Below are positions 641 through 43,700 of a stretch of DNA of 64,000 nt, one piece after another. Each line of letters starts with the position of its first letter. Position 1 is the stretch's first letter. The translations under genes and the position numbers were made by a program. Location of the stretch: positions 23,563,406-23,627,405 of the forward strand of contig NC_049985.1 of NCBI RefSeq assembly GCF_000003815.2, given 5' to 3'. Below the pieces are notes generated by a model. It worked only from the letters and a program-made list of their open reading frames with translations. It made no database searches and was not told the DNA's origin. Source of the stretch: Branchiostoma floridae (lineage: Eukaryota; Chordata; Leptocardii; Amphioxiformes; Branchiostomatidae).

Positions 641-3000
641 GTTTGTAACGTTAACGTTACATTGTGTCGTGATGATTCCAATATGACTTGCTTGGCTCGC
701 TCGACTATGCTGCTTGCGAGAAAAGCTTACCGTCGGCTTAAATTAGAAATCCTGAATAAACACTAGTTTCTCACGTACCTAAATGTTCATCTTATGCTTT
801 CCTGAACTGTAATTGGGTGAAATAAAAAAAAGCAGCAATTAACTAGAGTCCCATACCTTCGCCAAATGATTCTAACATTTACAGCTGCTATTGGTTGTGT
901 TTGTCATTTATTATGCAAATAAGGTTTTTATTTGCATAAATCATAACAGCTGATCATATCCTCCACCAAACAATAGACGTACACAATCTATGTGTTAAGA
1001 AAGAAGGCTTTCTTTTCATATTTTCCAGATAATTTATGCAAATAAGGGTCTTATCTGCATAATTTAATATTCCATGATGTTCACCTGTACATAACTTCAA
1101 AATGCTACGAGTACAGTAAGAAGTTCGCTTTATGCTGAACATAAAGAAACGAAGTTGGTTTCTTTTGATTATCACCGTATGTTGCCTCGTTAAAAAAAAT
1201 TTGAAATACACTTGTACCTGCTCATATTACGGTTCATTTTATGTTTTCTTGCACCGAATGCAAGCATGTGGAGTGAAAATGAATAAAAAATTCGGTTTCT
1301 TTTCTTATGATGCTAGACATTAAAAAACGAAGAAACGTTGGCTTCTCTTGTTTATCACCATATGTCCCTCGTTATTTTTTTGAGGATGAAGTCTCATAAA
1401 ATGTCAATTAGTATTTAGATGTGCAGAGTTACAATCAGTGTATTTAGAAAGTGTATCTAATAATTATTCGTCCGTTTTGTATGTGTGCCAAGTCACTGTA
1501 TTTTATACTAAGTTTAGCCACAGTACGGTAATGAAAATGTTTGCCAATACACTTTTACTTGATCATATTATGAATATAGTTTTTATAACCACCTGTCACC
1601 TTGTATAGATTTTTTGGATGAAGTCCATAACATGTGCAGAGGCACAATCAGTTTATTTTTAAAATGAATTTAATAATTAAAAGTTTTGAAGATGTCACTG
1701 TATTTTAAAAGTGGTAGCCACAGCAAGTCAATCAGTACAAAAATGTTTGCCATGCACTTTTACTTGCTAATATTATTAGAATGGTTTACTTTATATTTTC
1801 CTGAATGGAAGGCAAAAGTGTAAAATAACAACAGATGAAGAGGTTGAAGTCCAATAAAATTATAACAAACCAACGATGTCAAAATCACGGAATCAAATTC
1901 TTATATTTGGGCATGTGGTTCAACTGTGATACCATAGTTAAGAACTAATTCAAAAACCTCTATGCGAAACAAAACAAACGATTGTAAGGGTTCAAATTAA
2001 CTTAAATACCAAAAATATGTTTTGAAACTTGGACAAAATTTTTTTACGATTTTGAAAATATAGGCATATGTTAAGGCAGACTAATTGCTCGAAAGAAAAT
2101 GCGTTTCTCCAGCTACAAACTTTTCATCAAACTCGGTGCTTCTCAAAGCAGATGCCGCCAGACTGTTAATGTAAACATTTTGTTTTCATTTGGAATGGTG
2201 TGCGGCGGTCAGTTGTAACAGTTGAAACGAAATAAAGATCTTTGATTGCCACAAATCAGCTGTTTGATTTCTCCTCTTTGAACTAACAGGTAATAAAAGT
2301 GTTAATGACAATCTAGAGATTACGTATAACGGCAGGGATTTCTGTTGTTGTTTTTTTTCTGTCGTGTTAATAAAACGATCGTACCCTGAAATGAAATTAG
2401 CAGGACTACGTTAAATTTAGTTGAAGACAATTCAAGCTGGTGTAGCATGATGCTGAAAAATCTTTGCGTATTTAGAATCAACCGTAATTTGTACCTACTA
2501 GTTGTTTGAAAGAACAATACTGCTTTGATCACAATTCCTTATATTTATAACATACAAAAGTTCATGAATATTCATGATGTCTTGCCTTATTAGTCTTGGT
2601 ACGTCTTTTTTCAAATCGTGGTCAATCAAAGACAAGCATTTCACAGAGCTTCTGGCCAATTCTATCACCTTTCGTTTGCCATTTGGTCGTTTCAAAACGT
2701 TGTTCTTGTATCGACAGTTTGTAAGACATTTGTAATTGTTGGCGGAATGCCCAATCTTGGATAATGTGAGCTTATTACTTAAATTGCGATGAGAAAGACA
2801 AGCACCAGAGGAAGGCCCCTCCATGTCTTACCGAATTCCAAGCTGCCATCACCTTCACGCCAAGATGTGGATACAGGTAGGTAAAAGTCTACTGCATAAA
2901 TGATGACAGTAGCAAAAGACTGCATAACACTTTCAACAAGATCAACTAATGAAGCATCGGCCAAATTTGTACCCTCGATGAACTTTCAGATGTTTATTTT
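641..3000. other. Non-coding stretch with decayed tandem repeat
   Basis: No convincing gene is seen. From about 1100 to 1900 there are decayed units of the same tandem family that fills 19560-22090. Shared marks are a tcaccgtatgt-g-cctcg segment, a gcacatgtgcagag segment and an acacttttacctgctcatat segment. The rest is AT-rich unique-looking sequence. Confidence 0.5.
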
Positions 3001-4074: not shown

Positions 4075-4245
4075 ATGAGAACTGTGAAGATCCGAGCAGC
4101 AATGTGTGCCATCATCTACAACAAACCGGTACCCAGAGTAGAGAACCAACCGATATGGGGACGTACAGCCAACTCCCTGTGACTGGAGGCTTCGTTGGTA
4201 ACCAGAACTATGGGCCTGGTGCTTTACGAAAGGGGAAATTCCAAG
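4075..4245 (+). CDS. Lectin receptor exon A (cytoplasmic segment)
   Basis: A 171-bp exon in phase 1-1, between a ttttataacag acceptor and an aag/gtaac donor. It encodes 57 polar residues, including an NCEDPSSNVCHHL stretch and a TYSQLPVTGGF stretch. It has no hydrophobic run. It is the first exon I can place, and the phase shows that at least one coding exon precedes it. Confidence 0.6.
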
Positions 4246-5856
4246 GTAACGCTACACATCATTGTCATGACATTCACAAAGAATGTGTACGCCTGTGTGT
4301 ATGTGTGTGTGCCTGTGTGTGTTTATGTGTGTGTGCGTGCGTGCGTGTGTGTGTGCGTGCGTATTTTCGCAGGTGTATTCGAACCGTACAACTCAAATAA
4401 TTATTACCTTCGCCAAGAAGGTTTGTATGTGTGAACACGATAACTCGAGAATGGCTGCATGGATAATGTACGATGTATCCTGGTATTTGGTATATATCTT
4501 GAAAACCTTACGGAGCTACAGAGGAACTTCCAGATTTGATATTTCACGTTCTGGACATGCTATGGTAATGATTTTAGTGTTAGATAGCAAATGCTATTTA
4601 CGTCAATACAACAGACCCTAACAGGTACACTATGCATGTAGACGGAGTTGTTTTATAAAGAATCTTCGTTGTAACTTGCTGTCAAAAATATAGAAAACTC
4701 CTATACTTTGTATACATGTTTATAAAGACATGTATACTAAAGACGAAAGCAAATTGAACTAGGTGAATTCTTTTTAAATAAAAAAGTTACGCATAAGATC
4801 ACTGAAGCTGAATTTAAGTGATTTCTCCGTTAAAAATTAGAAATATGCATTCTATAAAGAGCATTGCCTTTTTAAAACAAATCAATACCAAAATTTAACC
4901 ATCCTTTACTACTAATTTATTTCATTATATCCAGACGGTTAAAGAATAGGATTTTAGGAAGCTTCCGGTCTCCACAGAAAATGTTCGTTTTTGTACTCGG
5001 TAGACATCATATTTTGTACTCGTATTGTACTCCGTATCACCCAAGGTGCCAGCCCGACCGCGGGTCGCATCGCACGACGGCCGAAGGCCGGAGGGTGATC
5101 CGACCTGCGGGAGGCATAAATAGGTATGACATAAATAAAATACAACACGGTGTATTATCCGACCCGCGGTCGGGCAAGGACCGAGGGTGATGCGGAATAC
5201 ACCGTGTTGTATTTTATTTATGTCATACCCACCTGAGAAAACCCATGTTTTGATGCAAAATGCGCCAGAAACTGAACAAATTTGGAGCCCTCGAACAAAG
5301 TGTTGCAACAGCAATGTTCCAACGTCCGAATCAGGTATTCGAATTGCCAACCGAAATTCGGCCCGCTCGAAATGGTTCGATTTACTCGAAGAAAGCCTGT
5401 GTGATACGCCTTTCGAACCTGTGTGATACGGAAGTTATGGCCCTGTCCGGAACACCCGTATCGAACATTATGGTATTGTTGTGATTGCATATATCGTGAA
5501 AGAGCACATTTTTTGTAATTTTTTTCAGAAGGTACGGTTCTGTACTACGGAACTGAAGTACAATCCCCTGACACCAATGAGTCCCATTACTATGTCAACA
5601 ATGTGAGCCATTACATTGAGAAAGAAGATAGCAACTCGTACGACCCACCACGACAGGCTAGTCAGCAACACGGTGGACAGCCAACTGCAGAAGAAACAGA
5701 CAAGACGGGCCGTAACGGTGCCCGCCTGTTGGAGAACCCGATGTACGCGACGGGTGTGTTACGTCAGGACGACGGAGGTACGTTTTGTTGTGTGGATCCT
5801 TGTAAGATTTACCATTTCCACCACACCGAGGGAATTGCGTAGAGCAATTAAATGAA

Positions 5857-5927
<71 letters not shown>

Positions 5928-8900
5928 ACTTGTGTGTGCGAGCGAGTACACGTATGGGTGTGAACGACCAGTACAATTTAAGAAGTTCTTAATCTAATGG
6001 AAATTGCCATTTTCTGTGTATTTCAATGAAGGGACCTTTTCATATCAGTTGAGTGCATGAATGCTTAATGACATTAAATCAACTTAACAGGACCTAACTA
6101 TAGCAGGCCCAGACTTTGGAACGTAATACCATGCAAAAGTATCTAAAGTGAATTGGAATGGGATGGTACAGAATTCAAATCTAAAACACGTATATGCACT
6201 ACGCAAGTTAAGTATTTGCCTTACAAGCCTATTGTTTATACTAGCCTATTTTTACCTCCATGAAATGTAATGGAATGGAGGTTATATTTTACCCTGTGTT
6301 TGTGTGTGTGTCTGTCTGTCTGTGTGTAAACAAGATAACTCAAGAACGGTTTGGTGGATTGGTTTCATACTTAGCGGCTCCCCTTGGTACTGCAGCGCAA
6401 CTTCCGGTTTTGCTATTTCGGTGTTCTGAACATGCTATGGTCATGATTTTTTAGTATTAGATAGCTCTTGTGCTCAGGAAGAAGTGACATTAGTTTGGGC
6501 CACCTAGCGTCTAGTTACTTCCGTGAAATGTAATGGAATGGAGGTAATATTTACCTGCATGTATGCAGGTATGGTTTTGATGCTGGTGGGAACTTTTCGG
6601 TAGCCGGGGATGTAGGGCGCTGTATCTCGTGAACGGATGGTGCGAGCACGACGATTTTTGGTACGTGGGTTGGGGGTGGTAGCCTAACACTCAGGTTTGA
6701 TTTTGGGCCTCCTGGCGTTTGAACTTGACATTGCAGGTGGCATTTTTGGTGTTTTGGGGGCACTTTTGGCGCTGTGTGTCCGGAACGATACGCGCGATTG
6801 CGACGATTTTTGGTGCATGGGTGGGGGGTTGTTGCCTGTTGCCTAGGATTGACTTTGGGCCTTGTCGCGTTTGAACTTGACCCAGCAGGTCGAATTTTGT
6901 GTCCGAGAGGGGTGTTTCCGGAGTTATATCTTCTGAACGGCTGGTGCTGGCGCGATGATATTTGGCACATGTGTCGGCGGTGGCTGAATAATGCTCAATT
7001 TTGATTTTGGCGCCCTTGGTGCTTGAACTTGACATTTTAGGTTACCTTTTGTGCGGGCACGGGGCGTGCGCTGTATCTCCGGAACGCAAGATATCATTGT
7101 GTTGCTATTTGGTACGTGAGTTGTTTGTGGTGTCCTGGTGGTCAGGTTTGATTTTGGGCCTCCTAGTGCTTGAACTTGATACTGTATAGGTTGATCTTGT
7201 TTTTGTGTGGTTGGGGCATCCTCCCAATATCTGCTTGGTTTTAAAAACAGATTATGGTTGGGTGTAGAACCATCATCTGGCCTGGGCCACCTTCAATGTA
7301 TCAGGTTACTTAGTGGCACTGACAGTTTGCCAGATGACGGGAGTGTACAAGATTATATATCTGTTGGTCAGGTATAATTGGAGTTTGCTTATTACTCTTT
7401 GTGGTGTTTCTAGAGCTGTATAGTACTGAGTTTTAAGTTTCGGTACAAGTTCCTTTACCCTGTTGGCAATCATGGTTGAACTTGAACTTAAACAGAAGAA
7501 GATGCAATTTTCTAATGTGGAGGAGAACTGTATAGAGTGTGGGCATAAGAGAAAGGTATGTGTATGATTTGTCCTGTGTTTCTTTTTGTTTCTTTGGTAA
7601 TGCCATTTCCATACTGTATACAGGTAATTTGTTGTTTTGGGCTAGTCATATTCGCTTGGTTTTTGGGCCTGCTTAATCTATGGTACAGGCAGGGTTAAGT
7701 GGTGGAGGCTTAGCTTTGTTCTGTTTTAAATTCAGTATCGTTGGTTGCATTTTGTCGCGGCAAATATATGATGAAATTCCCCTTCTAAGCAACTGCTCAT
7801 TGGTTTGCGGGGATGTTTGCTGGGTGTTTGCTCTGACTACAACAGCTTCTGAACTTTTCAAAGCTTCCATTGCCAGTAGTCTGTGTAACACAAACTCCGC
7901 TGTCCAGGGCTGTAACTGGCCCCTCCCCGCGGGCCGGCAGATGTTTGGCGGGCTGCTATAAGCGAGATTTAATCAGGCTACATTGCCAGCAGCTTGCCAT
8001 CTATAAATGGGATTGACAAGGACATTTTTCATAGTAAATTATGCTGTTAAATTTGGCTTAGTTAGATACTACAGGAGATTTAGGTTTGGGTTGGATGGAT
8101 TGAATGAAAATATCATACCACCCTGGGGACTAACTGTTGCTGCTGCATGGGGGCTACCACTATTCATATTGTCTAATGTCTATGGAACTACAGATAAAAG
8201 TATCATTGGTCAAATTATGCAAGTAACATTCCGATGTCAAGTGAATAACACCCCAGAAATAAATCTTTAATGAATATCATTGGAAGAACACAAACCAAGG
8301 AGACTTAGCAGCTGCATTAGGTCAGTACATTGAAATAGGAAGATATTAGTATATCATGTGACAGAGTAACTACATGTGCATGGGCCATCTGAGACAAAAA
8401 AAGGTAGCGTCTCAACAACTTCAAAGTACTGTGGTTGGTTACATACTTAAGAAATCCAAAATAAGTAATGTTCATCCATGTCCAAACTTACAAATTCAGA
8501 AAATGGAATTTCAGAGTCAGACTTTTGCATGGTGCACAACACGGTAAAAAGCTCATTTTTCCAACCACGTACCACAGACAAAGGCAAAAATACACAATAG
8601 GTCTACAGAAACCCAATACATTTCATGCAGGCCTGAGGTCTACGAACTCTTGTTTACCCTGTGTTTGTGTGTCTGTCTGTGTGTAAACAAGATAACTCAA
8701 GAACGATTGGGTGGATTGATTTCATACTTGGTGTGTTGGTAGGGTGTGATGAAAGCTGGAAATGATTAGATTTTGGGCCCCCTAGCGGCTCCCTTTGGTA
8801 ATGCAGCGCAACTTCCGGTTCTGCTATTTCGGTGTTCTGAACATGCTATGGTCACGATTTTTGAGTATTAAATAGCTCTTGTGCTCAGAAAGAAGTGACA

Positions 8901-11900
8901 TTAGTTTGGGCCCCCTAGCGTCTAGTTTTGGGAAAGCAGGGGCATTTTTGTCAAAAACTTCTGAAGAGGATAACTCAAGAAGGGAACAACGGATTTTCAT
9001 GATTTTTGGTATGTAGGTACCTCCGACAATGTTGTACAAAATGAAATACTTATTATGCAAAATAGGAGCAAATTTTCATAATTAATGACAACATTAAATC
9101 ATAGCAGTTTTTTCTATGTATCTCTTGTCTTGGACGTAATATGGTCTTGAAATTTGGGTGGTAGATAGCTTTCAGTGTCATGACAAAGTGGGGCAAGTTT
9201 CAACCCCCTAACATTTAATTTGGGAACTGCATGAGCGTTTTTGTCAAGACATTCCAAAGAGGATAACTGCAGAAAGTATTGACGAATTGGCATCATATTA
9301 GGCAGGCGGGTACCTTTGGCAAAGATGTTCATAATGATATACATGTTATGCAAGTGAGGACTTAATTTGCATAATTAATGTGGAAATTGCATAATTCCAT
9401 TGTTTGCCATAACTGGACTTCAATAATGTAACACATGTTAATTATGATAGGTGGAATATAAGCAGATACCAAATATGGTAATGAGGAACTTATTTGCATA
9501 ATTTATGTAAAAAATTGCAATACTGCTTTATGATTAATAATGGGAATTTTATAATTGTGACGTATGTACGTTTGTCAATGATGAACAACACCATGCATAA
9601 ATTATGTTGTTAGTCAATTGCATGAAATTTACGAAAGCTCTAAATTTTCATGGAGGTATGAGGTCGCCGAACTCTAGTTGTAAAGTGTTGTCGTCTGATA
9701 TTTACAGAACCAATCAAAAATACCACACGAAGAACAAATGCCAATTGAATTTGGGGAATTCTTTTGAAAGAAATGTATTCAGAAAGGTTTGCCTGAGATC
9801 ACTGAAACCCATTTTATAACCGTATAGTCGTAAACAACAATTCTAATTAGTCTGGAGAGGTAGTAAACATCATTTAATGAAAAGTGCTAATTTAAAAAAA
9901 AAAGATGACAAGCATTTTGTGTAAGTTATAACCATCCAGATTGATGGAACCANNNNNNNNNNNNNNNNNNNNNNNNNNNNNNNNNNNNNNNNNNNNNNNN
10001 NNNNNNNNNNNNNNNNNNNNNNNNNNNNNNNNNNNNNNNNNNNNNNNNNNNNTTTGGAAATGATGATATACAACTGTATCAAAGACATGTATATTATAGA
10101 CTGTAAAACAAATATAAATCTAGTTCCGGGTAATATATTCAAATGCACGTCGTTAGAAACATATTACTGGCGTCTCCAAATGTAATATCAGTCATTGTTG
10201 ATCTGCAAATCTTCTTTATGACACAGGACCTTCGGCAAGTTCCTTCAGAGAGGAAGAAACCAAAGAGCAATCGCCTGGCACCTATGAGTCCCATTACTAT
10301 GTCGACAATGTGGACCACTACACTGAGGAAGAAAATATCAACGACCCACGACAGGCTAGGCAGCAAAGAGGACACGGTGGACAGCCAACTGCAGAAGATA
10401 CAGACAAGATGGGCCGTAACGGTGCCCGCCTGTTGGAGAACCCGATGTACGCGGCGGGTGTGTTACGACAAGATGAGGGTGGTACGTTTTGTTGTTTACA
10501 TTCGAATTTACTTAACGTTTACCAGCTGACACTACAAATGAGTCAGTAGACCAATTTAAGGCCTGAATCAGTTTGTGTATGTCCTTGTGTGTGCATGCGA
10601 GCACAAGCATGGGTGTTAACGACCAGTACAACTTAAGAAGTTTTTAATCTAATGGAAATTGCCATTTGCTGTATATTCCAATGAAGGGACTTTTTCATAT
10701 CAGTTAAGTGCATGCATGCTATCTAATGCCATTTAATCAACTTAACAGGACCTAACTGTTGCAGGAACCGACTTTGAAGCGTAGGTTCATGCAAATTGTT
10801 GTCATCTGATATTTACAGAACCTATCAAAAATACCTTACTGAATGTGTGTTCGAGCGCACGTGTGTGTGTCAACGAAAAGTATAACTAAAGAAGTTGTTA
10901 ATGGATTGGCAAGATATTAGCCTGTAAATTCGAATGTCAATGAAGTGGATTGCATGAATGCTACTTAATGCCATACAAAGGGATCTAACTATTGCTCACT
11001 GAGACTCTTCCCTTGCAACTTGTTCATTAAAAAGGGCCCAAGGTTCAAAAATAGCTATAGGAAATGTAAATGCCCTGTGCAAGTTTATTTGTTTATACTA
11101 GCTTTTTTGCAACTGGCTGCCATCTGATATTTACAGAACGTGTCAAAAATACCCCGCGAAGTAAACAAAGTGGACAGCCAACTGCAGAAGATATAGACAA
11201 GACGGACCGCAGCGGTGCTGGCCTGTTGAAGAACCCGATGTACGTGTCAGGTGTGTTACGTCAGGACTTTGGAGGTACGTTCTGTTGTTTGATCTTATTA
11301 CATACCACAAAGAATTTACATGACAATTTTAAGGGAGTGTTTTGATTAGTATGTAGATATATTGATCAACAGGTAATGTAAGACCTTTGAAAAGTATGAC
11401 GCTGTTGTTGATTACTTTACAGTTTACTGTGCTATTAAAATGTTAATTAGATCACGCACTTTCACTTATGGGTACTGCTTTGTCTTCCTGAATCATAATA
11501 AAGGGTTGTGTGCTGGTTCTTTTTTCCCTGCGCATTTTGATAGGTGATACAAAAAATCTTCGGTTTAACCCTATCCAGACTGGGTTTTTTGGCATTCCCT
11601 GGACTGAGGTGGGGGGGGGGGTGAGGGGTGAGGGGTTGCGGCTCATTTGCATCTTCGTATTTTCGAAATATATTAGTCTGTAATAAGAAACGAAGTAGTG
11701 ATGAAATCCGAGTGAAAATAAGCTGGTTATACTTTCTTATCAGAACATTGTCGGCCATCTTGGATTTTGACCAATAACGTCATCTTATTAGCATAATGTA
11801 TGAATATTTAATTAGAGGGTTGGGGTTTGGTGGTTATGTACAGCTGTTGCAAGCAGTTTACAGTTTACATGTCTGTTAACTACTGCCAAAATATCTCAAT

Positions 11901-14900
11901 GTATTCCATATGGTATCAGTTACCCTACTCGTCATAGTTTAAGCCAATCATTACAGCTGCCACAATTTCACTTGGAATCTGGAAGGCGGAAATTTAGCCA
12001 CAGGGGCGTCTGTCCGTGGAATCACCTTCCAAAGACTTAAAAAACATTTAAGCGCATGATGAAACTGAGATTTCACCTTTGACCCCACGACCGGACTGCA
12101 TTATGAATATGGATAACGTTCTTTTTTGTGTATATTACTTGTATGTTATGTATTGTGTTGATGTGACATGTATGTGATATCCAGGGCCCCACTTTAATGC
12201 AGTGAGCACTGAGTTACAGTTACCCTGGCTAAAGAAAACAGAATAGAATAGAATAGAATAGAATAGAATAGAATAGAATAGAATAGAATAGAATAGAATA
12301 GAATAGAATAGAATAGAATAGCTATTTAGAAGGCAAATTGACAACACGAATGAAATGAACATAATATATGAAATATTGTTGCTTTACAGGTAACAACGAC
12401 GCTGCAGACAGTTGTGTATTTCCCAGATGCTTCAACGTGACATCTCACAGATCATTCATGGTCCTACTCGTCACCATCGCCATAGTTGTAGCAACCGCCA
12501 TTGGCGCAGGAGTTGGCCATGGCCTCGTCACACTTCGCGCAACCATGCAGGAGACCCATCCGCTCTCACTCAACAGTTCTCTGGAGCGGAGTGGTACATC
12601 AAGCCGACCAGTGTCACCATTCCCCGCCACCCCTACCGGTTCTACACTGGGAAACAAAAATGGAAAACCCTCGGTTGGTTCCCTACCTTGCATTCAACGT
12701 CAGTGTACCGAAAGTGCGAAATGGAACGAAACTAAAGCAGGACAGCTTTTGAAATACCTGGTTTATATTCAGACGTTGCTGCACATTTGTTTATTAATAA
12801 GTTGTCGTATATTTCGTATCCATGTCAAGTTTTTTTTCGTCATAATAGGTCAAGTTCGATTTCACTGACAATCCATTTATATTAGCACCATAAAAACATT
12901 CATTATCTACTGATGCAAACGACAAGTCTTTGAAAGGTATGCAAAAGAATATAAAAGAGGATTGTGCACCGAAGAAGATATATTGTTCAAGAACAACAAG
13001 TTATATTTTGAAATCTACATCTTTAACAGACCATGATGATTGTGACGGAAAATCCGTGGGATCCAACCAACGCGACATCTTTTCTTTCATGGAAGACAGC
13101 TGATGGTGTGAAAGTGTCTAAGGTGTTCTCTACCGATCTGGATCTGGAAACTGGAACAGCAAAGGCAGTTACGCCTGCAGCTACAGCTAACGTAAGAATA
13201 CGTTCAAGGTCATTCAACTATTTTAGCCAATAATGAATAGCAACTTATATTTACTGCAATATTCCTTTTAACACAAAGACTTCCTGTGGTAAAATGGTAT
13301 TCTTATCCTGTTTACAAAGCGCTGCCAGATATTATTTCAAAATCCTTTGGGTCACTTTGAATGGACTATATTCTGATTTCTTCATTACAAACAGCCCATG
13401 ATGATCGTGACGACGGAAGATGCAACAGCCTTGCTTTCACGGAAGACAGATGATGGTGTGACGGTGCCTACTGTGTCCTCTACCGATGTGGATCTGGAAA
13501 CGAGGGTGTTTCCGCAGATCGGAAAAACAAAGGCAGTCACACCTGTAACTACAGCTAAGGTAAGAACAAGTTCGTCTAAAGTCTTTGAAATGTCCTCGTC
13601 AATAATGAATCTCGGAATACATGTACAGTAATATTCCATTTAGCACAAAAAAACTACTATCAATCTTAGCCAGTAAGCCTTACAAAGCTCTGCACCTGTT
13701 TACAGTCTTATTCTTCATATGCAAATTAGTAATTCTATTCTGATACATCTACACAGCTCAAGACGATCGTGACGGAAGATCCAACCAATGCAAGAGCGAT
13801 TCTTTCAAGAAAAACAGCTGATGGTGTGACGATGCCTGAAATGTCCTCCACGGATATCGACCTGGAAACAGCAACAGAAACAACACAGGATGTCAGGCCT
13901 ACAACTACTGTAACAACTAATGTAAGAAAAAGTCTAAGTCTTTTGAAATGCGCTAGCCTACATTGTAAATTAATATCTTATGAACTATAGTCACGTTATT
14001 TTCAACACAAAACTTCCATGTCGTAAAATAGTTACTTAAGCAACTAGATAGAATTTGAGAGTTTCAAAATCTTGCATGAAATGATATCAAACTAATTTAA
14101 CAGTCTTGCCTACATGGACGACATGTAGGAGACTATAATGTGCTAATATGTCGTCTAGCGCTTAGACCGATTACAATCTTGAAACGATCATTTGTCCGCA
14201 GGCAAAGACAGTCGGCAACTACAGAAAAAGTAAGAAAATATATAGAGAGATCTATAAAATGCCCCAACCTACAATGGAAAACAGTTTTGCACTGTACAAT
14301 TGTATCATCGTTCTTCGCCAGGTTTTGACACAAACTGTCGAAAGGACAGGGTTTGACCAGCTTCAGAAGACTACAAAGCAACAATCTTTAACATCCCACG
14401 AAGGTACGGCACTCAATAGACAAATTATTTGTTCTATACTATGTACGTAGACATGAGCAACTAGATTTTATATATAGCTGTACAATCTTCTGTAGAAGTA
14501 TGCCCTACTAACATTTCCTCATGAACACATAACAATAACATGGACAATGTGGCTCTGCATGTATAAAAACTTTTTGATAGTACCACATAACAACTTTGCC
14601 ATAGGGATGTTTATTATATTCCAACGATAGCGTGGTATGACTTCCTGTAAATTGTGTAATGTTCAATATTATAGCAACCTTAAACTAAATTTAGATTGTA
14701 TTTGCAGAGACGTAACGTCATTTCCTTACGATAAGGGATGTTATACCTTAACAAAACAGTGATCCGTCCACAGGGTTGTGGTTGACGTATCGTATTTTTA
14801 TCTTCTAGGATCTTCCTGTAGGCCATCGTTATTTGAGAGGTTATGGTTATGGTTCACCATAACTGTACCAGCACATGCCCATTCTATTTCTTAATTGAAT

Positions 14901-17900
14901 TCCAAAAAGCACTTGTTATTGTTTTGTGTGGTTTTGACTTCAGAGTTTCGTAACGATTCCGTATCCACTTCTCCAGGATGGCTTACACGGGATTTGTTAC
15001 GGGTTGTGGGGTCAAACGGCGCACCGTGGGTCAACGACGAAGTGACGTATGATGCCGCAAAAGCCTTGGATGGGGACACTGGAACCTACTGGAACCCTCA
15101 GATTACCCTCCACAGCTACTGGAGCTGGAATATAACATTCGACCTCGCAGTGCCCCAAGCTCTGACCCGCGTCGCAGTCAACAACTACGGAGACACCACC
15201 CATGACATCGCAGCCTTCACGCTGCAACAGTCGCAGGCTGGGAGTCCGTACAAGTGGGAGGACGTCGTGACCGTTACTAACGTACAGGGCGGGACGGACA
15301 GGCGGCAGGAGTTCGGCGGGTTCCAGGGAACAGCGCGGTACTGGAGATTCCTCATCACTCGGACCCACTCGGGCTATCAGCCATGGCTAAGAGAACTTAA
15401 CTTCCATGGAATCTCAGCAGGTAAAGAAAATTATTGTTTGTAGCTTATCAAAATTCCAATTCAAGGAAGGTTCACAATAAACGGTTATGACGCCATTTGT
15501 TACATAACTGAACTCTTATGTTATCCAGAAAATTTTTTTCATAATGAAATATGCAGAAATTATGCTCATTTGAAGATGTCATCGGTCAAAATACAAGATG
15601 GTGGACCATGTGACCAGTTGAAGAATAACTAGCTTATTATCCCTAAGAAATTGTAACTAACTTTTCATAAAAAAAACGTTTAAATGAACGTTCTTAGTCA
15701 ATTTGCAATGTCTTTTGCGATTATTTATTGCAAAAAATGTATTTTGGAAAATTCAAGATGGTTGATATAAGATGGTGGAGCCCAACTGGTATATTAGATA
15801 GGCATGATGCCATTTTATGACGTCATAATTGATAATGTTTTTGGCAACAAAAAGCCCAAAAAAACATTATTATTCTATCTGCATTTGCTGTTACTTTGTT
15901 GTAACATACCTTGATGTTTTCCTGTAATACCCTTTTTTCACGGTTCCAGCAAATAAAATCAAAATGCTGACGTCATGATTGCGTCATTTTACGTCGTAAT
16001 AGGGTAAAATTTCTACAAATCATTAGATATGATACATACATCATTCTTTAATAATTTGGTGGTCATATAATAAGTTGTTACTAGGAGTTAGAAGGGGTCG
16101 GCCTCAAAAGACCCTACGCCGCCCTACCCGCCGGGGGAGGGAGGGGGCAGGATTTAAAAAAAAAAAGCCGTTGAAGAGATTCATTAGTCACGTATGTTCA
16201 CAGTTAACTAACTAACTTAAACCTGACAAACCTCTCGTCCGCACCAGGAGTCAATCTTGCCCTGGGAAAGTCAGCGTTCCAAACAACCACTTTTCATGAG
16301 GTCAGTGGGTTTGCCAGCCATGCCGTAGACGGGAACACCAATACCTGGTACCATAATGGATCATGTACACACACAGCAAACACCCCGGGGGAGGATAATC
16401 CAACCTGGTCGGTGGACCTTGGGCAATCGTATGTGATCAGCAGGTATGTGTACAGCTTTATTCATATGTCAGACATTATGTCATATCTGGGCCGCGATAA
16501 CGTTCGAAACAGGTGTTCCGGACCAGTTGATAAAAAGCCGTATCACACAGGTTTCGAAGTTTTATCACACAGGCTTCCATCGAATATTTCGAATATACTC
16601 TGCGCACGCTAGTGCGGCGCGGTCGAAAATTCGAATACCTGATTTGGACGTTGGAACGTTGTTGTTAGAACGTTTGTTCGAGGGCACCAAATTTTCTCAA
16701 CTTCTGGCACATTTAGCATCGAAACATGTGTTTTCTCAGGTGGGTACGACTTCGGCCATCGGGCGATCCTACCCGCGGTCGGGCTGGTACCTCGGGTGAT
16801 AAAGAATACACCGTGTTGTATTCTATATATATCACTCACTCACACACACAAACACACACAAACACACAAATACACACACACATATCCAGTTTCTTGAGTA
16901 ATTGCTGTTTAGAATGCACCTTGTAAACGTGCATCGACATATTCACAAACCTATTGCTGTTATCAACATCTACAGGATATCTATCTTCAACCGCCAGGAC
17001 TGTTGTTCGGAACGAATCAACCCCTTCAACATCCACATCGGGGATTCCGACCAGGCCAGCACGAACCCGATGTGTGGAGGTGATAATCAGATCGACGTGA
17101 ACCAGCCGTCCATTTCCGTCTCCTGTCAGGGGATGAAAGGTCGCTATGTAAGCGTCCGTCTTCCCGGATCCTCCCGAATACTGACCCTGTGTGAAGTCCA
17201 AGTACGAGCATTTTTGGGTAGGCCTTCACTACGTTCACTTTACATGGTTATGTCATATCTATACACGGTGTTTTCACTATTGAGAGCGTCGCACTGGCGT
17301 AAGACCTGTTGCATCAATTTATTCTGGCAACTGCAGAATAGTATAGTAGCACTTGCATAGTAGCAACACTGAATATGTTTAGCAACCATGCAATGTGTAT
17401 GTCAATATTTGAAGAAACACAGTCACCTAAAACAAAACAACAACAAAAAAATTCATCGGGACAACATTTTCTTCATAAACGATGTCAATAGATCCAGCGT
17501 ATATACCACTTTCAGGTGTAGGATACAAGCAAGAGTGCAAGGCTGGCTACATACGACTCAAGCGGCACTGTTTCCGGCTGGTTTCCCATACAAAGTCTTT
17601 TTTGGAGGCACTAGAGGCCTGTAAGGCGGAAGAAGCGATTCTGGCTATGCCTAAAACGGAATTTGTGGACCTAGCTCTGAGACGCCTGGTTCAAAAGTCA
17701 GGAAGCAACTCCGATTATTGGATCGGTATGATAGAGGCTGGTTCCGACTGGAAATGGCTGGATGGAGCACGTCTGGGAAGCTACCAGGTAATAATATGTG
17801 TTCTGTCGACAAAAACAATACTTAATATCCACCTTGTACATTCTATTATCTTTGACATTTGGGTTAGAATTTGTGTTTCATTCGTCTCATCATTCCGTTC

Positions 17901-18846
17901 TTAGCTCCTGGTTAGTCTGGTTCGAATGAATGTCTCCTTTGCTGGAAGGTTATGTTTTGAGCGTGTTTGTTTGCGTGTGTGTACATGTCTGTCTGTTAAC
18001 AGCATAACTCAAGAAGCCTTGGATGGATCCTGATAATATTCGGTAGGTGGGTAGGGGTCGATCGAGAAAACGAAGGATAATTTCGATAATAAACCCCTAG
18101 CAGCTTTCTAAAGTATTGCAGCAGAACTTCCATTTTGATAACTCTTGATTCGGATATGCTGTGGTTGTGATTTTCCAGTAGTAGATAGTCGTTGGGGCAG
18201 AGAGTAGGTGCTGTGATTTTGGGCCCCCTTGCGGATGTTTTTAAAGCTGGAGTTTTTTGTCAAACTTTCAACGAGAATAACTCGAGAACGTGTGAACGGA
18301 TCGTCATGATTTTTGGTATGGAGATAGCCTAAGTGGCCATTTGCATAATGTAATACTAATTATTTAAATCATAAATACTGATGTCGAAAAGATTCAAACC
18401 ATTTGGCGAAGTATGAGGTCGTGGAAATCTAGTTTTAACATTGTATTCATGTCTTAATATCAATGTCTCCGATTGGACATCTAAAATTGTCTTCATTCAT
18501 AGTTAGGCTATAAAAGACCAGTTTCTTCCAGATCACTTCTGTATCACGCACGAAGGATACTGGATTCTATCCGAACGTCTGACTGTTTCCATACATATCC
18601 AGTTGCTTGAGTAACTAATTTTTGGCGTATCTTATTACCTGGTTCATTAGACTAGAACTGATTGACTTAAAGCTGTTTTTTCTTACCCATCAGGGATGGC
18701 ACCCAGGTGAGCCAAGTGACTTAAAAGGGTTTGGTCCATTATGCGTTCAATATTGGTCATCAGGACATACCACTGATCCTATGTGGGACGACATTTGGTG
18801 CCATGAGACAAGGAGGTACATCTGCCAGTCTCGTCCTGGTATATAA
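4075..18846 (+). CDS. Type II membrane lectin receptor (discoidin-like, fucolectin, C-type lectin), 5' incomplete
   Basis: This is a gene-level entry whose exons are listed separately. Visible exons in order are 4075-4245, 5529-5777, 10227-10481, 11137-11274, 12390-about 12760, 13030-13191, 13395-13559, 13757-13921, possibly 14212-14229, 14322-14403, 14944-15420, 16248-16443, 16976-17217, 17516-17787 and 18694-18846. All junction phases agree, and the joined length is exactly 1,039 codons including the stop once the one base from the missing upstream exon is added. The N-terminal part is polar with NPxY motifs and no signal peptide. One hydrophobic segment follows, and the C-terminal two thirds carry lectin folds, so the topology is type II (C-terminus outside). 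The likely role is a cell-surface carbohydrate-recognition receptor with endocytic or phosphotyrosine signalling. The role is inferred; the fucolectin and C-type lectin calls rest on clear motifs. The initiating exon is upstream, either outside the window or unrecognised. Confidence 0.75.
4285..4365. repeat. GT-rich microsatellite
   Basis: Imperfect GT/GC-GT dinucleotide run in the intron after exon A. Apparent Val/Cys-rich reading frames here are repeat artefacts. Confidence 0.9.
4405..4620. repeat. Fragment of the 1-kb dispersed repeat family
   Basis: It begins with a ttaccttcgccaagaaggtt motif and carries acgataactcgagaatgg and ctggacatgctatggt phrases, which match the repeats at 3001 and 17930. 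It is truncated and intronic. Confidence 0.55.
5003..5490. repeat. GC-rich hairpin repeat, family R3, copy 1
   Basis: Shared with 16474-16833 (reversed), 26529-26950 and 62378-62780. The marks are an inverted pair of aatacaccgtgttgtatt motifs around a CCGCGGTCGGGC-type GC-rich core, a following atgtcatacccacctgagaaa segment, and a far end with tccggaacacccgtatcgaac. This copy seems to hold an extra internal duplication of the hairpin head. It is intronic and non-coding. Confidence 0.7.
5529..5777 (+). CDS. Lectin receptor exon B (cytoplasmic NPxY module, copy 1)
   Basis: A 249-bp phase 1-1 exon with acceptor tttttcag and donor gag/gtacgt. It encodes 83 residues. Two tyrosine motifs stand out. 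YVNN (5591-5602) fits the YxNx consensus of Grb2-type SH2 ligands, and NPMY (5735-5746) fits the NPxY consensus for PTB binding or clathrin-mediated endocytosis. The C-terminal half (QPTAEETDK to GVLRQDDGG) recurs in exons C and D. Motif function is inferred from consensus only. Confidence 0.75.
5855..5939. repeat. GT microsatellite
   Basis: Nearly pure GT dinucleotide run about 60 bases after the coding part of the intron following exon B. Confidence 0.95.
6250..6560. repeat. Fragment of the 1-kb dispersed repeat family
   Basis: It begins with tacctccatgaaatgtaatg and carries the aacaagataactcaagaacgg and ctgaacatgctatggtca phrases. It appears to interrupt a duplicated intron: the sequence just before it (tgtttatactagc) continues without interruption at 11090-11110. 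Confidence 0.6.
6600..7210. repeat. Tandem array of about four 150-bp units
   Basis: Each unit has a tatctcgtgaacgg-like start (near 6620, 6772, 6922 and 7071), a gatttttggtacgtggg-like middle and a tttgggcctcctggcg...gaacttgac-like end. Spacing is about 149-152 bp. Long minus-strand reading frames here follow from the repetition and have no recognisable domain. Confidence 0.65.
7211..8650. other. Intronic stretch without recognised feature
   Basis: This lies in the intron between exons B and C. No exon with suitable splice sites and phase 1-1 frame was found. A segment near 7910-7975 with gggccggcag and agatttaatcaggctaca resembles 24330-24375, so it may be part of another dispersed repeat. 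Confidence 0.4.
8657..9680. repeat. About 1-kb dispersed repeat, copy 2
   Basis: Colinear with 3001-4036. Shared phrases include gttctgaacatgctatggtcac, gtggggcaagtttca, cacatgttaattatgatagg and the closing catggaggtatgaggtcgccgaa. It ends immediately before a decayed copy of an exon D acceptor at 9687. Confidence 0.7.
9684..9745 (+). pseudogene. Decayed copy of exon D start
   Basis: The sequence tctgatatttacag followed by aaccaatcaaaaataccac parallels the acceptor and first codons of exon D (11137 onward). The copy then diverges and lacks the NPxY-coding part and a donor. It is a relic of exon duplication in the lectin gene. Confidence 0.6.
9953..10052. other. Assembly gap (100 N)
   Basis: Exactly 100 N, so a placeholder rather than a measured length. 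It lies within the intron before exon C, and an exon could be hidden here. Confidence 1.
10227..10481 (+). CDS. Lectin receptor exon C (cytoplasmic NPxY module, copy 2)
   Basis: A 255-bp phase 1-1 exon with acceptor tttatgacacag and donor ggtg/gtacgt. It encodes 85 residues. It keeps the SHYY block and NPMY (10439-10450), but the YxNx motif of exon B has become YVDN (10298-10309), so only the endocytic or PTB-type motif is strictly conserved. It is near-identical to exon B over the QPTAE to GVLRQD part, indicating fairly recent duplication. Confidence 0.75.
10600..10800. repeat. Duplicated intron segment (partner 5940-6130)
   Basis: The intron sequence after exon C repeats that after exon B. 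Shared are a ttaatctaatggaaattgcc block, a tttcatatcagttgagtgcatg block and an atcaacttaacaggacctaact block. A more decayed third version runs from about 10870 to 11010. The unit of duplication was therefore exon plus downstream intron. Confidence 0.75.
10797..10840 (+). pseudogene. Second decayed copy of exon D start
   Basis: Here tcatctgatatttacag is followed by aacctatcaaaaatacctta, matching the exon D acceptor and first residues, after which homology is lost. There is no NPxY-coding part and no donor. Confidence 0.6.
11137..11274 (+). CDS. Lectin receptor exon D (cytoplasmic NPxY module, copy 3, short)
   Basis: A 138-bp phase 1-1 exon with acceptor gatatttacag and donor ggag/gtacgt. It encodes 46 residues with a fresh N-terminal part (RVKNTPRSKQ) joined to the shared QPTAEDIDKTD block, NPMY (11232-11243) and GVLRQDFGG. 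It lacks the SHYY block of exons B and C. Confidence 0.7.
12241..12320. repeat. GAATA pentanucleotide microsatellite
   Basis: Sixteen uninterrupted gaata units in the intron just upstream of the transmembrane exon. Confidence 0.98.
12390..12760 (+). CDS. Lectin receptor exon E (transmembrane segment)
   Basis: The acceptor tgctttacag is clear and the phase is 1. The exon encodes a short Cys-containing juxtamembrane part, one hydrophobic helix (about 12456-12530; SFMVLLVTIAIVVATAIG), and a Ser/Thr/Pro-rich stretch with N-glycosylation sequons. The 3' border is uncertain. The next exons need phase 0, which fits a ctg/gtttat donor at 12760 or a weaker tcg/gttggt donor at 12673. With no signal peptide seen upstream, this helix is the likely signal anchor. 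Confidence 0.65.
13030..13191 (+). CDS. Lectin receptor stalk exon F1
   Basis: A 162-bp phase 0-0 exon (acceptor ctttaacag, donor aac/gtaaga) encoding 54 residues. The pattern is MIVTE...LSWKTADGV...STDLDLET...TPAATAN. It is homologous to F2 and F3, forming a repeated Thr-rich extracellular stalk. Confidence 0.7.
13395..13559 (+). CDS. Lectin receptor stalk exon F2
   Basis: A 165-bp phase 0-0 exon (acceptor acaaacag, donor aag/gtaaga) encoding 55 residues with the LSRKTDDGVTV and SSTDVDLET signatures of the stalk repeat. Its symmetric phase lets it be gained or lost without a frameshift. Confidence 0.7.
13757..13921 (+). CDS. Lectin receptor stalk exon F3
   Basis: A 165-bp phase 0-0 exon (acceptor ctacacag, donor aat/gtaaga) encoding 55 residues. 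It carries LSRKTADGVTM and SSTDIDLET, then a Thr-rich end that suits O-glycosylation. Confidence 0.7.
14212..14229 (+). CDS. Possible 18-bp microexon or decayed stalk exon
   Basis: Six codons (SATTEK) lie between a gcaaagacag acceptor and a gtaaga donor. The donor context mirrors that of the stalk exons, and the phase is 0-0, so the frame holds with or without it. It could equally be the surviving 3' tip of a fourth stalk exon. Confidence 0.3.
14322..14403 (+). CDS. Lectin receptor exon G (linker)
   Basis: An 82-bp phase 0-1 exon with acceptor cttcgccag and donor gaag/gtacgg. It encodes a 27-residue polar linker (QTVERTGFDQLQKTTKQQ) that connects the stalk to the discoidin-like domain. Confidence 0.55.
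14944..15420 (+). CDS. Lectin receptor exon H (discoidin-like domain)
   Basis: A 477-bp phase 1-1 exon encoding 159 residues, a single-exon module. It reads as a galactose-binding-like beta-sandwich (discoidin / F5/8 type C related). The marks are AKALDGDTGTYWNP near the start, WNITFDLAVPQALTRVAV in the middle and ARYWRFLITRT...LRELNFHGI at the end. An earlier in-frame ATG at 14895 belongs to the intron. The exact subfamily and ligand are unknown. Confidence 0.75.
15421..16247. other. Intron without recognised feature
   Basis: AT-rich intron between the discoidin-like and fucolectin exons. It contains a short G-rich run near 16126-16150 but no exon candidate. Confidence 0.6.
16248..16443 (+). 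CDS. Lectin receptor exon I (fucolectin domain, first half)
   Basis: A 196-bp phase 1-2 exon with acceptor gcaccag and donor agcag/gtatgtg. It starts with the family opening GVNLALGKSAFQT and has ASHAVDGNTNTWYHNGSC, then CTHT and PTWSVDLGQSY. These are hallmarks of the eel-fucolectin / tachylectin-4 (FTP) type of F5/8C lectin. Confidence 0.8.
16474..16833. repeat. GC-rich hairpin repeat, family R3, copy 2 (reversed)
   Basis: Reverse-complement copy of the family at 5003, 26529 and 62378. It begins with acattatgtcatatctgggccgc and ends in aatacaccgtgttgtattc. It lies in the intron that splits the fucolectin domain. Confidence 0.7.
16976..17217 (+). CDS. Lectin receptor exon J (fucolectin domain, second half)
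   Basis: A 242-bp phase 2-1 exon. It carries NRQDCCSER, which fits the RxDx4R fucose-binding core. The CTHT histidine of exon I lies 29 residues upstream of that Arg, a little more than the usual family spacing of about 24-26. The Cys pair, an MCGG segment, GRYVSVRLPG and LTLCEVQV complete the domain. Fucose or related glycan binding is likely, from established fucolectin family knowledge. Confidence 0.82.
17516..17787 (+). CDS. Lectin receptor exon K (C-type lectin domain, first part)
   Basis: A 272-bp phase 1-0 exon with acceptor actttcag and donor taccag/gtaata. It carries the leading Cys residues (KQEC, KRHC), the helix with ALEACKAEEA and the WIGM...WKWLDG core. This is a typical long-form C-type lectin start. 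Confidence 0.82.
17930..18430. repeat. Fragment of the 1-kb dispersed repeat family
   Basis: It has agcataactcaagaagcc, ttttgggccccct and catgatttttggtatg phrases and closes with ggcgaagtatgaggtcg. It is a divergent relative of 3001-4036, inserted in the intron that splits the C-type lectin domain. Confidence 0.55.
18694..18846 (+). CDS. Lectin receptor exon L (C-type lectin domain end, stop codon)
   Basis: Terminal exon with acceptor tacccatcag, phase 0, stop taa at 18844-18846. It has WHPGEPSD, where EPS takes the place of the sugar-selecting EPN or QPD triplet of canonical domains. It also has MWDDIWC in place of the WND calcium site, and RYICQ at the end. The calcium-coordinating Glu and Asp are kept, so calcium-dependent binding is possible, but its specificity cannot be predicted. 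Confidence 0.82.
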   Translation, partial: GWHPGEPSDLKGFGPLCVQYWSSGHTTDPMWDDIWCHETRRYICQSRPGI

Positions 18847-18879: not shown

Positions 18880-19480
18880 ATCTTTAGGCCACGGCAAGTA
18901 CATTTTATGGATGACATCAGCGCGCGCATTAATTTTCGCCTGATTTCAGAAAAAAAACAAGATTTTTTTCTTCTGCATGGATGGTAAACATGACGATAAC
19001 GTACCAAAATGAGCAAATATGTTGTGTTGTAGCCTAATAATTGTACTTGTAGAAAAACAAACACTTGCGAGGTACCCAGGACTGTAGTTGTAGAAATAAA
19101 ACTTATTGGATAGTTGTAAAAGTGACACCAATATGGAAGTCATGAGTGTGGTTACCAACTTGCATCAAAACTTTGTTGGTGATGCCAGTCTACCACACTA
19201 GTGTTACTTTTACCACACCAGTTCATGTCTTGAATACGGGAATGAATGCCTTGTTGGCTCTAATACCATGTTTTGTCCCTTTAATTCTTGTTACAACATT
19301 CATCACAACTTAATGGTACCTATTTTTGAAAAATGTAGCCATCTTGTTTGTTTTTTTCACCCATCTTGTTTTTTTCGCCCTATCGCACTATTTTTGCAGT
19401 CTGCAGAGGATGTCATCCATAAAATTTACTTGCTGTGGCCTTAATAATTGTTTATTGATTGCAGTTCCACCAATCTCCAA
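18880..19480. repeat. Dispersed repeat R5, copy 1
   Basis: Shares ggccacggcaagtacatttt, ttttcgcctgatttcagaaaa, aaaatgagcaaatatg and a gtcttgaatacgggaatgaat block with 22262-22830. More loosely it resembles 61010-61520. It directly precedes the 340-bp tandem array. Confidence 0.65.
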
Positions 19481-40718: not shown

Positions 40719-43700
40719 GTGAGTTTTTAATGATTGTGGGTCCTTAAATCGGCGTAGCTTATGCACTCTACTATTATAAATGATATGATTTGAGATGAGT
40801 ATCTTTGAGAAAAGAAAAATTCTGGAAGTTGTGTGTGTTTTAACATTGCTTTGTCTGTGCGTTGACAATGGCTTCACACTTGCTTTTGCTTGTTCAATTG
40901 TTCATAAAATAGATATACAATTGTCGACATTTTTTATCATGTACGTCTTCCTATTGGATCTTGTAGAGGTCAGCACGTACGCAGCGTCAGCAAGACGTTA
41001 GAGGACGGAAAGACCACTTCTTAGCTGCGCCGTCAATTGACGTCATCAAAGACGGAATGCACCGTCTACACAGGTAGGTACTACATGGAATGCTGGGTCT
41101 TTGTGATTGGTTTTGACTATCTTATAGGGAATATAAAAAGTTTGGAATATCAACTTGGTTTGATTATATTTCTGTTGTTTTTGCATCAATTTCAATGTGT
41201 TATATATCAATAGAAAGCTTGTGTGATCTTCGTTTCAATGGTATAAAAGTCATTATGAACTCATAGAACAAGCACCAGGCCTGCTTACTTGAGTGGATCA
41301 CAAAAAAAAGGGCCCAAATTTCCCCGCTACTGTTCAACACTGCATCGTACGGTTGTTATGGCCGCGGGTGACAATGATATGGTATATAGAACATCCCAGA
41401 TTACTTTTAGCATACTTGAGTAGAGTATTTTATGATTGTAAATTTATGGAACGGGCACCAGGTCTGTTTGCGTACAGGGTGGTCATAAAAATAAAGTGCC
41501 GCAATTACCCTACTAAAGTCAAACACTCCATTCAGCTAATTTTGTTCCGTCTGTATTGACTTGTGAATGAAGGCAAGTTGAATAAACAGGACATGTCAAT
41601 CAAAGCCACAGTTACTCTTTATTCAAGCAAATTTGAACCAAGAGGTGCTAGCCATAAGCCGTATACATAGTAAGGCTATTACATCCTAAGACTGTACTCC
41701 AGCATCCTGGAGGTAGTCTTCGATGGTCCTTGCTATGTGTGGACGATGTTTTAATCTTGCAGAATGGAATTTGGTCCAATATTGAAGAGGTAGGATATTG
41801 CGACTTGATGGAGGATTGTGTCCCTATATCTCAACACATTGAAGTTGCCTGGAATGATGACGAGTCTTGTTTTTCCTATAGCGGTTATACTCTCCCCACA
41901 CTATGACGCGGCCTCCACCACCAAACGCTGAAAGTTACTCTTGCCGTGTCAGCGTGCGGTTCTCCTAGCCACCTGCACGCTTTATTCGGCCATATCCAAC
42001 TGCCGAAAGGGCAGACATACTCTACTCAAATGTGCTATAACAAACTGGTATGTTCTGTATTCCAAACGTGATGTGAATAAATGATTGACTGAGTCACCGA
42101 CACACGCAACAATACCAACAAGACGATACAATGTTGAACAGAATCAGGGAAATTTGGACACTATTTTTCTTGAAATACTCCTGTAAGCAGGCCTGGTGCC
42201 CGTTTCATGAGTTTACAGTCATAATAAGGTTGATACTATAGGAAAGAGAATCATACAAGCTTCCGATTGGTATATTATACATTGAAATGTATGCAGAAAT
42301 AGTGGAAATATGATATACTAAAGTTGATATTTCAAACTTTTTTGTGCCGAGTTTAGATAAAAAGCTCTATTTATTGTATGATAATGCATTTTGTTATTCC
42401 TCTTCAGTGCGCTTGAATTACAGAAAGCTGAAAACCCGACACGAGTTGACGATAACAAGTTAGTGTCACCCATTTCTTTCCTTTTTTTACAAGTGTTTGA
42501 AATGAAAATGTAAATTGTCCGCATCGTAATTTGTTCAAGATATGGGAGCGGTTGAGCCAGGCCTAAATGCTTTGCACATAATGTAAATATGGTGATAAAC
42601 AGAGAAGCTCGAGAAACTGTGGATGGATCTTTATGTTATTTGGAATGTGGGTGTCAGCAAAAACAAATGTTTGATTATGGACCACCTGATGGCTTCTTGC
42701 AGTACTGCAAAAGAACCTGTGGTTTTCACATCTCGTGCTCTGGACATGGCCGTTTTTGTAGATACGTCTTTGGTTCATGAATAAGTAATACATCTTTGGG
42801 CCCCAGCTGCTTTTATGGAGAATTTGAGAATTTAAACAATTCAAGAACTTGTCGAATGTAGAATGATGAAATGCGAGGGGCTTACAAAAAGGCTGGCCTA
42901 AATTTACTCTCAAGCAGAGGTTATACTTTGGCTGCTTTTGACGCGTTTTTATCGGCCTTTCTATTTTGTACTATTTTGTTTATGTCTTACAGATTGGGCT
43001 AAATTACAAGAATCTGGGGCGGCTGTCAAGTAAGGAGGTTAGATTAGCAAAAAAACTTACAGGACAAGGGCTAATAGTTCTGCTTCAACTCAGACACTCT
43101 GTACTACAAATTAGATACGATTCAAATTATAAATACATTTTGTAATAGTTTTGTCTTCTGAAATCTTTACAGTAGATACGAAGAACATCTTCATGCTGGC
43201 TGCAGGGCCCTGCAGACTGGAGACCTGGACACTGCAGAACAAAGCTTTGCAGCCGCGCTCAAGTCTGTCCATATCAATGGTGGGTCTAAGTATGAACTTA
43301 GTGTAAATAATTTAAAAGTAACTACGTATAGATGGTTCGAGATCATCGGTTCTTGTCGACACCCAGAACTATATTTACTGCAAACCCGTGGTCTCTATAG
43401 GCAGGCGTTTGAAGACAAATGAAACACATAAGCGAAGGCTAAAATGGAACATTGATAATCTTAAACTTACAGGTCAACACGGGAAGGAGGCAGAGCCTCT
43501 GTGCAAGCTAGGCGAGGTCTATCTGAAGAGAGGAATCCAGTCAAAGGACGGGGGTGATTTCACCAAGGCTGCAGCACTCTGTAATGCAGCACTGGTAAGG
43601 TCAAGGAGAGACGATATAAACAAAGCAATTAAAGAGATAGGTGAATTATTTGTTAAGGAAGTATTGAAGATAGTTGTTCGATACAGTGACGATACAGAGA

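Follow-up and report, generated by a model that had tools for sequence, protein, structure and literature searches.

The window, by which we mean the whole 64,000-nucleotide stretch of Branchiostoma floridae DNA at C7:23563406-23627405 of a 513-Mb assembly, contains a chain of exons that can be read as a single gene encoding a putative membrane receptor with lectin domains (Table 1). Open frames on both strands were listed and positions 1-21000 were read before the chain was rebuilt from splice sites and phase, which gave AG acceptors, GT donors and compatible phases throughout. The preferred model has 15 exons and 1,032 residues, with complete splice sites and no internal stop. The continuous frame of 1,038 residues that the first-pass annotation had drawn from 4075 to a stop at 18846 was reproduced exactly. 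That version needs a transmembrane exon running to 12760 and an additional exon of 18 nt, which the preferred model omits, and it amounts to 1,067 residues when a 29-residue first exon is added.

Table 1. Features of the window (positions counted from its first base) and of related loci (contig given before the position).
Feature	Position	Strand	Phase	Basis or remark
Likely first coding exon e1, MRKTSTRGRPLHVLPNSKLPSPSRQDVDT	2789-2876	+	0 to 1	donor CAG/GTAGGT in phase
Tail exon e2	4075-4245	+	1-1	splice sites; 21 genome match rows
Tail exon t3, LENPMY	5529-5777	+	1-1	splice sites, frame
Assembly gap	9953-10052			100 bases
Tail exon t4, LENPMY	10227-10481	+	1-1	at least 42 genome match rows
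Tail exon t5, LKNPMY	11137-11274	+	1-1	splice sites, frame
Signal-anchor (transmembrane) exon and stalk start	12390-12673	+		3' end uncertain, alternative 12760
Stalk repeat exon s1	13030-13191	+	0-0	splice sites, paralogues
Stalk repeat exon s2	13395-13559	+	0-0	splice sites, paralogues
Stalk repeat exon s3	13757-13921	+	0-0	splice sites, paralogues
Possible 18-nt stalk exon	14212-14229	+		frame alone; dubious, outside final model
Last stalk exon s4	14322-14403	+	0 to 1	kept in paralogues
Discoidin / F5-8 type C domain (DS), single exon	14944-15420	+	1-1	Pfam
F-type lectin domain exon F1	16248-16443	+	1 to 2	splice sites, Pfam, solved-lectin matches
F-type lectin domain exon F2, RQDCCSER	16976-17217	+	2 to 1	splice sites, Pfam
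C-type lectin domain exon C1	17516-17787	+	1 to 0	Pfam; 10 genome match rows
C-type lectin domain exon C2, EPS and WDD	18694-18846	+		ends in TAA
AATAAA, possible poly(A) signal	19095-19100	+		hexamer match
1,151-residue open frame	43322-46777	+		many TPR repeats, weak DUF294-like nucleotidyltransferase part
Unnamed domain in Q1, two copies	C7:23526636-23526938, C7:23528197-23528502			about 102 residues
Hevein-like chitin-recognition piece in Q1	C7:23529071-23529430			open frame; Pfam Chitin_bind_1 E 0.0013, below cut-off
Unnamed domain in Q2, two copies	C7:23556161-23556463, C7:23558278-23558583			about 102 residues
Second DS-F-C gene, e2	C3:7586925	-		four tail exons
Second DS-F-C gene, anchor	C3:7578120	-		
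Second DS-F-C gene, DS	C3:7573123	-		
Second DS-F-C gene, F	C3:7570057	-		
Second DS-F-C gene, C	C3:7569486	-		

Upstream of the exons annotated at first, e1 is likely to be the first exon with the start codon. It supplies an in-frame ATG and 29 residues and joins e2 in phase, and the ATG is present in all seven copies in which the exon was found (the window counted); in the paralogue copy P2 it was undetected. A further tail exon could be hidden in the assembly gap. The AATAAA downstream of the stop is weak as a poly(A) signal, since such hexamers are about equally common in the window and in shuffled sequence.

The 3' end of the transmembrane exon has two candidates, of which 12673 (phase 0) is the more likely. 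The GT after 12673 is present in all seven aligned copies, again counting the window. The donor at 12760 was not preferred because conservation collapses after about 12698, a position that in P2 is closely preceded by an in-frame stop (TAA); it is also disfavoured by P5, which has a 2-base insertion near 12698. Two observations run counter to an end at 12673: conservation of the DNA continues for 25 bases beyond it, and among the aligned copies identity to the window is 89-95% over 12594-12673 but 75-82% over 12390-12593. The copies differ less in their DNA at the start of the stalk (12572-12698) than in the preceding stretch that codes for the transmembrane segment. Over 12572-12681 all seven copies also have a second open frame, in which 9 of 23 changes are synonymous, as against 6 of 23 in the stalk frame; a Pfam scan of this second frame gave zero matches.

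The predicted tail is 323 residues long, and its repeated NPxY motifs, noted in the first-pass annotation, are three copies of NPMY (LENPMY twice and LKNPMY), each with a hydrophobic residue ahead of it. In 20,000 shuffles of the tail the mean number of NPxY motifs was 0.06, and three were reached in a single shuffle. NPMY is retained in 18 of the 21 tail exons examined and its last two residues, MY, in all 21. Other tyrosines are numerous in the tail, with YVNN among them. The first exons of P1, P5, Q1 and Q2 carry RPLPxLP, twice in P1 and P5, which we take to be a class I SH3-ligand-like motif; the window's first exon has RPLHVLP in its place. At 9700-9745 and 10811-10845 the start of t5 can be recognized by eye twice more, in what look like decayed copies, which suggests that tail exons have been gained and lost.

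The 1,032-residue model has one conspicuously hydrophobic segment, with a Kyte-Doolittle mean of 2.58 over residues 324-342 (next best, 0.87), and lacks a hydrophobic N-terminus. This layout agrees with the type II topology proposed at first; from the single internal anchor and the non-hydrophobic N-terminus we infer that the N-terminus would lie in the cytosol. The repeated Thr-rich stalk was likewise recovered, with three repeat exons and 20% Thr over the stalk as a whole. The tail, anchor and stalk have no Pfam matches at E values up to 1.

The order of the head domains, discoidin-like, fucolectin (F-type) and C-type lectin, is borne out by the exon chain and by a Pfam scan of the 1,067-residue version, whose domains are those of the preferred model. 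F5_F8_type_C, F5_F8_type_C_2 and Lectin_C all exceed their cut-offs, so that two domains of the F5/8 clan are present. The DS exon scores 44.5 bits against a cut-off of 28.2 for F5_F8_type_C. Against solved structures the discoidin domain has three weak matches at E up to 10, the best (0.0044) being a glucanase/chitosanase, and a single-sequence structure prediction of its exon is all-beta at low confidence (pLDDT 57.5, pTM 0.56). Its solved relatives, weak by sequence, give no basis for assigning it a sugar ligand, and the earlier description of a three-lectin receptor overstated the case.

The F-type domain is closest by sequence to FBP32 (3.5e-55) and eel agglutinin (9.2e-22). The RxDx4R motif noted earlier is RQDCCSER, at residue 817 of the 1,032-residue model, with adjacent cysteines, and the cation motif h2DGx takes the form AVDGN. 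The aligned His (SCTH) is present at 29 residues from the Arg segment, compared with 24 in the motif HX24RXDX4R/K given in an excerpt of the published account (PMC5712786); His52 and Arg79 of eel agglutinin also deviate from the spacing of 24. The two C-type exons together score 50.2 bits for Lectin_C (cut-off, 22.6), and the EPS reported in the first-pass annotation is in place. As a whole domain, the best solved relatives belong to the mannose-receptor group; for the half that holds the sugar site, the tunicate lectin TC14 ranks in the top three of 50 matches, with EPS...LCVQYWS...DD in the window aligning with EPS...LCVQIWS...DD in TC14. The classical EPN/WND pair is absent from the domain, some classical ligands are missing and, relative to the TC14 calcium ligands as excerpted from PMC3293724, Asn109 is read from the alignment as Asp. 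In this comparison the C-type domain resembles the galactose lectin TC14 at the predicted sugar site.

Related copies lie near the window gene. We fetched 260 kb around the window, with C7:23390001-23503000 outside the fetched region, and searched it by tblastn and home-made profiles. Among the ten copies in this region, the window gene is the only one in which DS, F and C are all complete. P1 has four tail exons, an anchor, DS, F and a remnant of C, and P2 has the same series with three tail exons; P1b comprises two tail exons and a truncated anchor. P4 (two tail exons, anchor, two DS) and P5 (two tail exons, anchor, one DS) both end in a remnant of C, which in P5 contains stops. In Q1, two tail exons and an anchor are followed by an unnamed domain twice, a hevein-like piece, F and an intact C, and in Q2 three tail exons and an anchor are followed by the unnamed domain twice and by C represented by its last exon only. 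Evidence counter to a fixed head order comes from P3, in which F precedes DS and no tail was seen, and from Q0, in which a stalk is followed by a diverged F, then DS and a remnant of C. The F-type set of His and RxDCCxER can be made out in P1, P2 and Q1 as well as in the window; the Arg segment is changed in P3 and the His in Q0. At the C-type motif the window has EPS, Q1 and Q2 have EPR and the P2 remnant has EPN. The unnamed domain has no Pfam matches in the three copies scanned and no solved relatives by sequence (best E 1.5); it has 60 matches in the genome, often two in close proximity.

These copies are under mild constraint only. Pairwise dN/dS has a median of between 0.50 and 0.74 depending on the exon, and individual pairs reach 2.49; at the NPMY-bearing end of the tail exons (the last 17 codons) constraint is no stronger (0.69). 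The decayed C-type domain in many neighbours indicates that the whole head may not be needed.

Beyond this cluster, the genome was searched at the DNA level with single exons of the window gene. All candidates were scored for the transmembrane exon (27 rows from 27 candidates), C1 (10 from 10) and e2 (21 rows from 20), and 40 candidates each for DS (at least 41 rows; 112 candidates), F2 (at least 40 rows; 145 candidates) and t4 (at least 42 rows; 63 candidates). After a 43-base match on C13 was dropped, 26 of the 27 transmembrane rows were kept as real copies; 20 of the 21 e2 rows were kept, the other being the second piece of a match on C4. Tail exons, e2 or both lie upstream of 24 of the 26 anchor exons within 20 kb and of 22 within 10 kb; the difference arises from two C7 anchor exons near 12.1 Mb, whose tail exons are found only at 11.5-18.3 kb.

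Matched head exons follow 22 of the 26 anchors (within 20 kb and before the next anchor exon) in six combinations, all counts being lower bounds: F only at five loci, F-C at six, DS only at six, DS-DS at one, DS-F at two and DS-F-C at two, with none found at four. Among the matches listed, the DS-F-C order occurs in the window gene and on contig C3 (Table 1). A listed F exon lies upstream of nine of the ten C1 matches, at a distance of up to 4.1 kb in eight cases and of 7.8 kb in one; the tenth is without one. At anchor-bearing loci, again among the matches listed, DS is restricted to the 23-Mb cluster of C7 and to C3, and F-C is commoner and wider, which suggests the addition of DS to a receptor of the F-C type.

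Taken together, we consider it probable that the exon chain is one gene for a type II glycan receptor with an NPxY uptake tail and a DS-F-C head, belonging to a family that spread by duplication, both in tandem and onto other chromosomes, and kept its tail, anchor and stalk as heads were lost, doubled and exchanged. The chain might instead join, on paper only, a tail-anchor gene and an adjacent secreted lectin gene that duplicate together. Such fusions have been documented among lancelet gene predictions, one of them, with Lectin_C, being disproved by ESTs (excerpt of PMC4967905), and among the matches listed 25 of 40 F rows and 29 of 41 DS rows have no nearby anchor exon. On the other hand, phases fit at all junctions, s4 bridges the two halves by passing from phase 0 to phase 1, the model has no signal-peptide-like hydrophobic segment ahead of the lectin exons, and stalk and heads stay linked across paralogues though the heads vary. 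The first-pass annotation itself had named a separate gene for the cytoplasmic exons as the case against it; that is unlikely, as exon order and strand are the same in many paralogues, and the shared order, the full copy on C3 included, argues strongly against a fusion made by gene prediction. We regard two genes as unlikely here.

The protein could also be a real receptor that serves adhesion, self-recognition or phosphotyrosine signalling, its NPxY motifs docking PTB or SH2 proteins. The SH3-ligand-like motif in paralogue first exons and the many further tail tyrosines, YVNN included, point in this direction, as does the presence of NPxY in integrins (excerpt of PMC5122593), but the window copy has lost RPLPxLP, and we hold such a role to be possible and rather less than probable. 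Family turnover might, alternatively, have left the window copy open yet non-functional. Mild constraint would fit this, as would the truncated anchors and stop-bearing C-type remnants of several neighbours; the window copy, however, has no internal stops, has every splice site, retains its lectin motif residues and alone among the ten copies of the fetched region has three complete head domains, so that decay is very unlikely.

In the uptake receptor that we favour, about 320 residues with three LxNPMY motifs would be intracellular, followed by one signal anchor, with a Thr-rich stalk and a three-domain head outside. The F-type and C-type domains would most likely bind glycans that carry fucose and galactose, whether on microbes or on altered self, which would give the receptor a possible immune role. 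The tail may recruit PTB-domain adaptors of the Dab2, Numb or ARH type for clathrin-mediated uptake, a proposal supported by the binding of NPXY by the Dab2 PTB domain, which connects such receptors to clathrin (excerpt of PMC5122593). Phosphorylated tail tyrosines might lead to signalling as an alternative to uptake. More broadly, a fixed module of tail, anchor and stalk combined with exchanged glycan-binding modules (discoidin, F-type, C-type, the hevein-like piece and the unnamed domain) may represent a set of germline-diversified uptake receptors that feed one pathway, an interpretation that we judge evenly balanced.

Several known systems share parts of this arrangement. The F-type domain matches those of eel agglutinin (AAA, 1k12) and striped bass FBP32 (3cqo) over its whole length, with RxDx4R, adjacent cysteines, the aligned His and the form of the cation motif in common; these are soluble lectins with one or two F-type domains, whereas the window's domain is part of a predicted membrane receptor and has a loop after the His that is 3 residues longer. 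TC14 of Polyandrocarpa (1byf), a calcium-dependent galactose lectin, shares EPS...LCVQ.WS...DD with the C-type domain but is a small single-domain protein, unlike the multidomain head here. The LDL receptor family, megalin and other receptors internalized by Dab2 are type I and are not known to carry these lectin domains, and Drosophila furrowed and CG9095 are presumably also type I in orientation, without repeated NPxY. In excerpted accounts, the former resemble the window gene in their NPXY tails (PMC5122593), and each of the two Drosophila proteins likewise combines F-type with C-type domains and has a transmembrane segment, with CCP repeats that the window gene does not have (PMC5712786). 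Lancelet proteins with the order fucolectin, two C-type, CUB and APEC also join fucolectin and C-type domains; they differ in order, have CUB and APEC instead of discoidin and are described with no mention of an NPxY tail, and most members of their clade are reported to be absent in some individuals (excerpt of PMC12373286).

The combination of F-type domains with C-type and FA58C domains has already been reported, as have more than 70 F-type clusters in B. floridae (excerpt of PMC5712786). A literature search that covered few subscription journals showed, among the papers listed, none on the discoidin, F-type and C-type order with an NPxY tail, and none on a family of type II receptors in which NPxY exons are repeated and heads can be exchanged. 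The joining of lectin domains itself being known, what deserves attention is that one tail is kept while the heads are exchanged. It is disputed, in the parts of the two papers drawn on here, whether lancelets have an exceptional rate of domain combination (PMC4284660) or one inflated by fused predictions (PMC4967905). Since the tail, anchor and stalk can be traced exon by exon at 26 loci, head changes in this family are checkable without gene predictions, and gain, loss and change of order can be followed in the DNA itself across six combinations. If expressed, these genes would provide a defined collection of glycan receptors, shuffled in nature, that have one tail in common.
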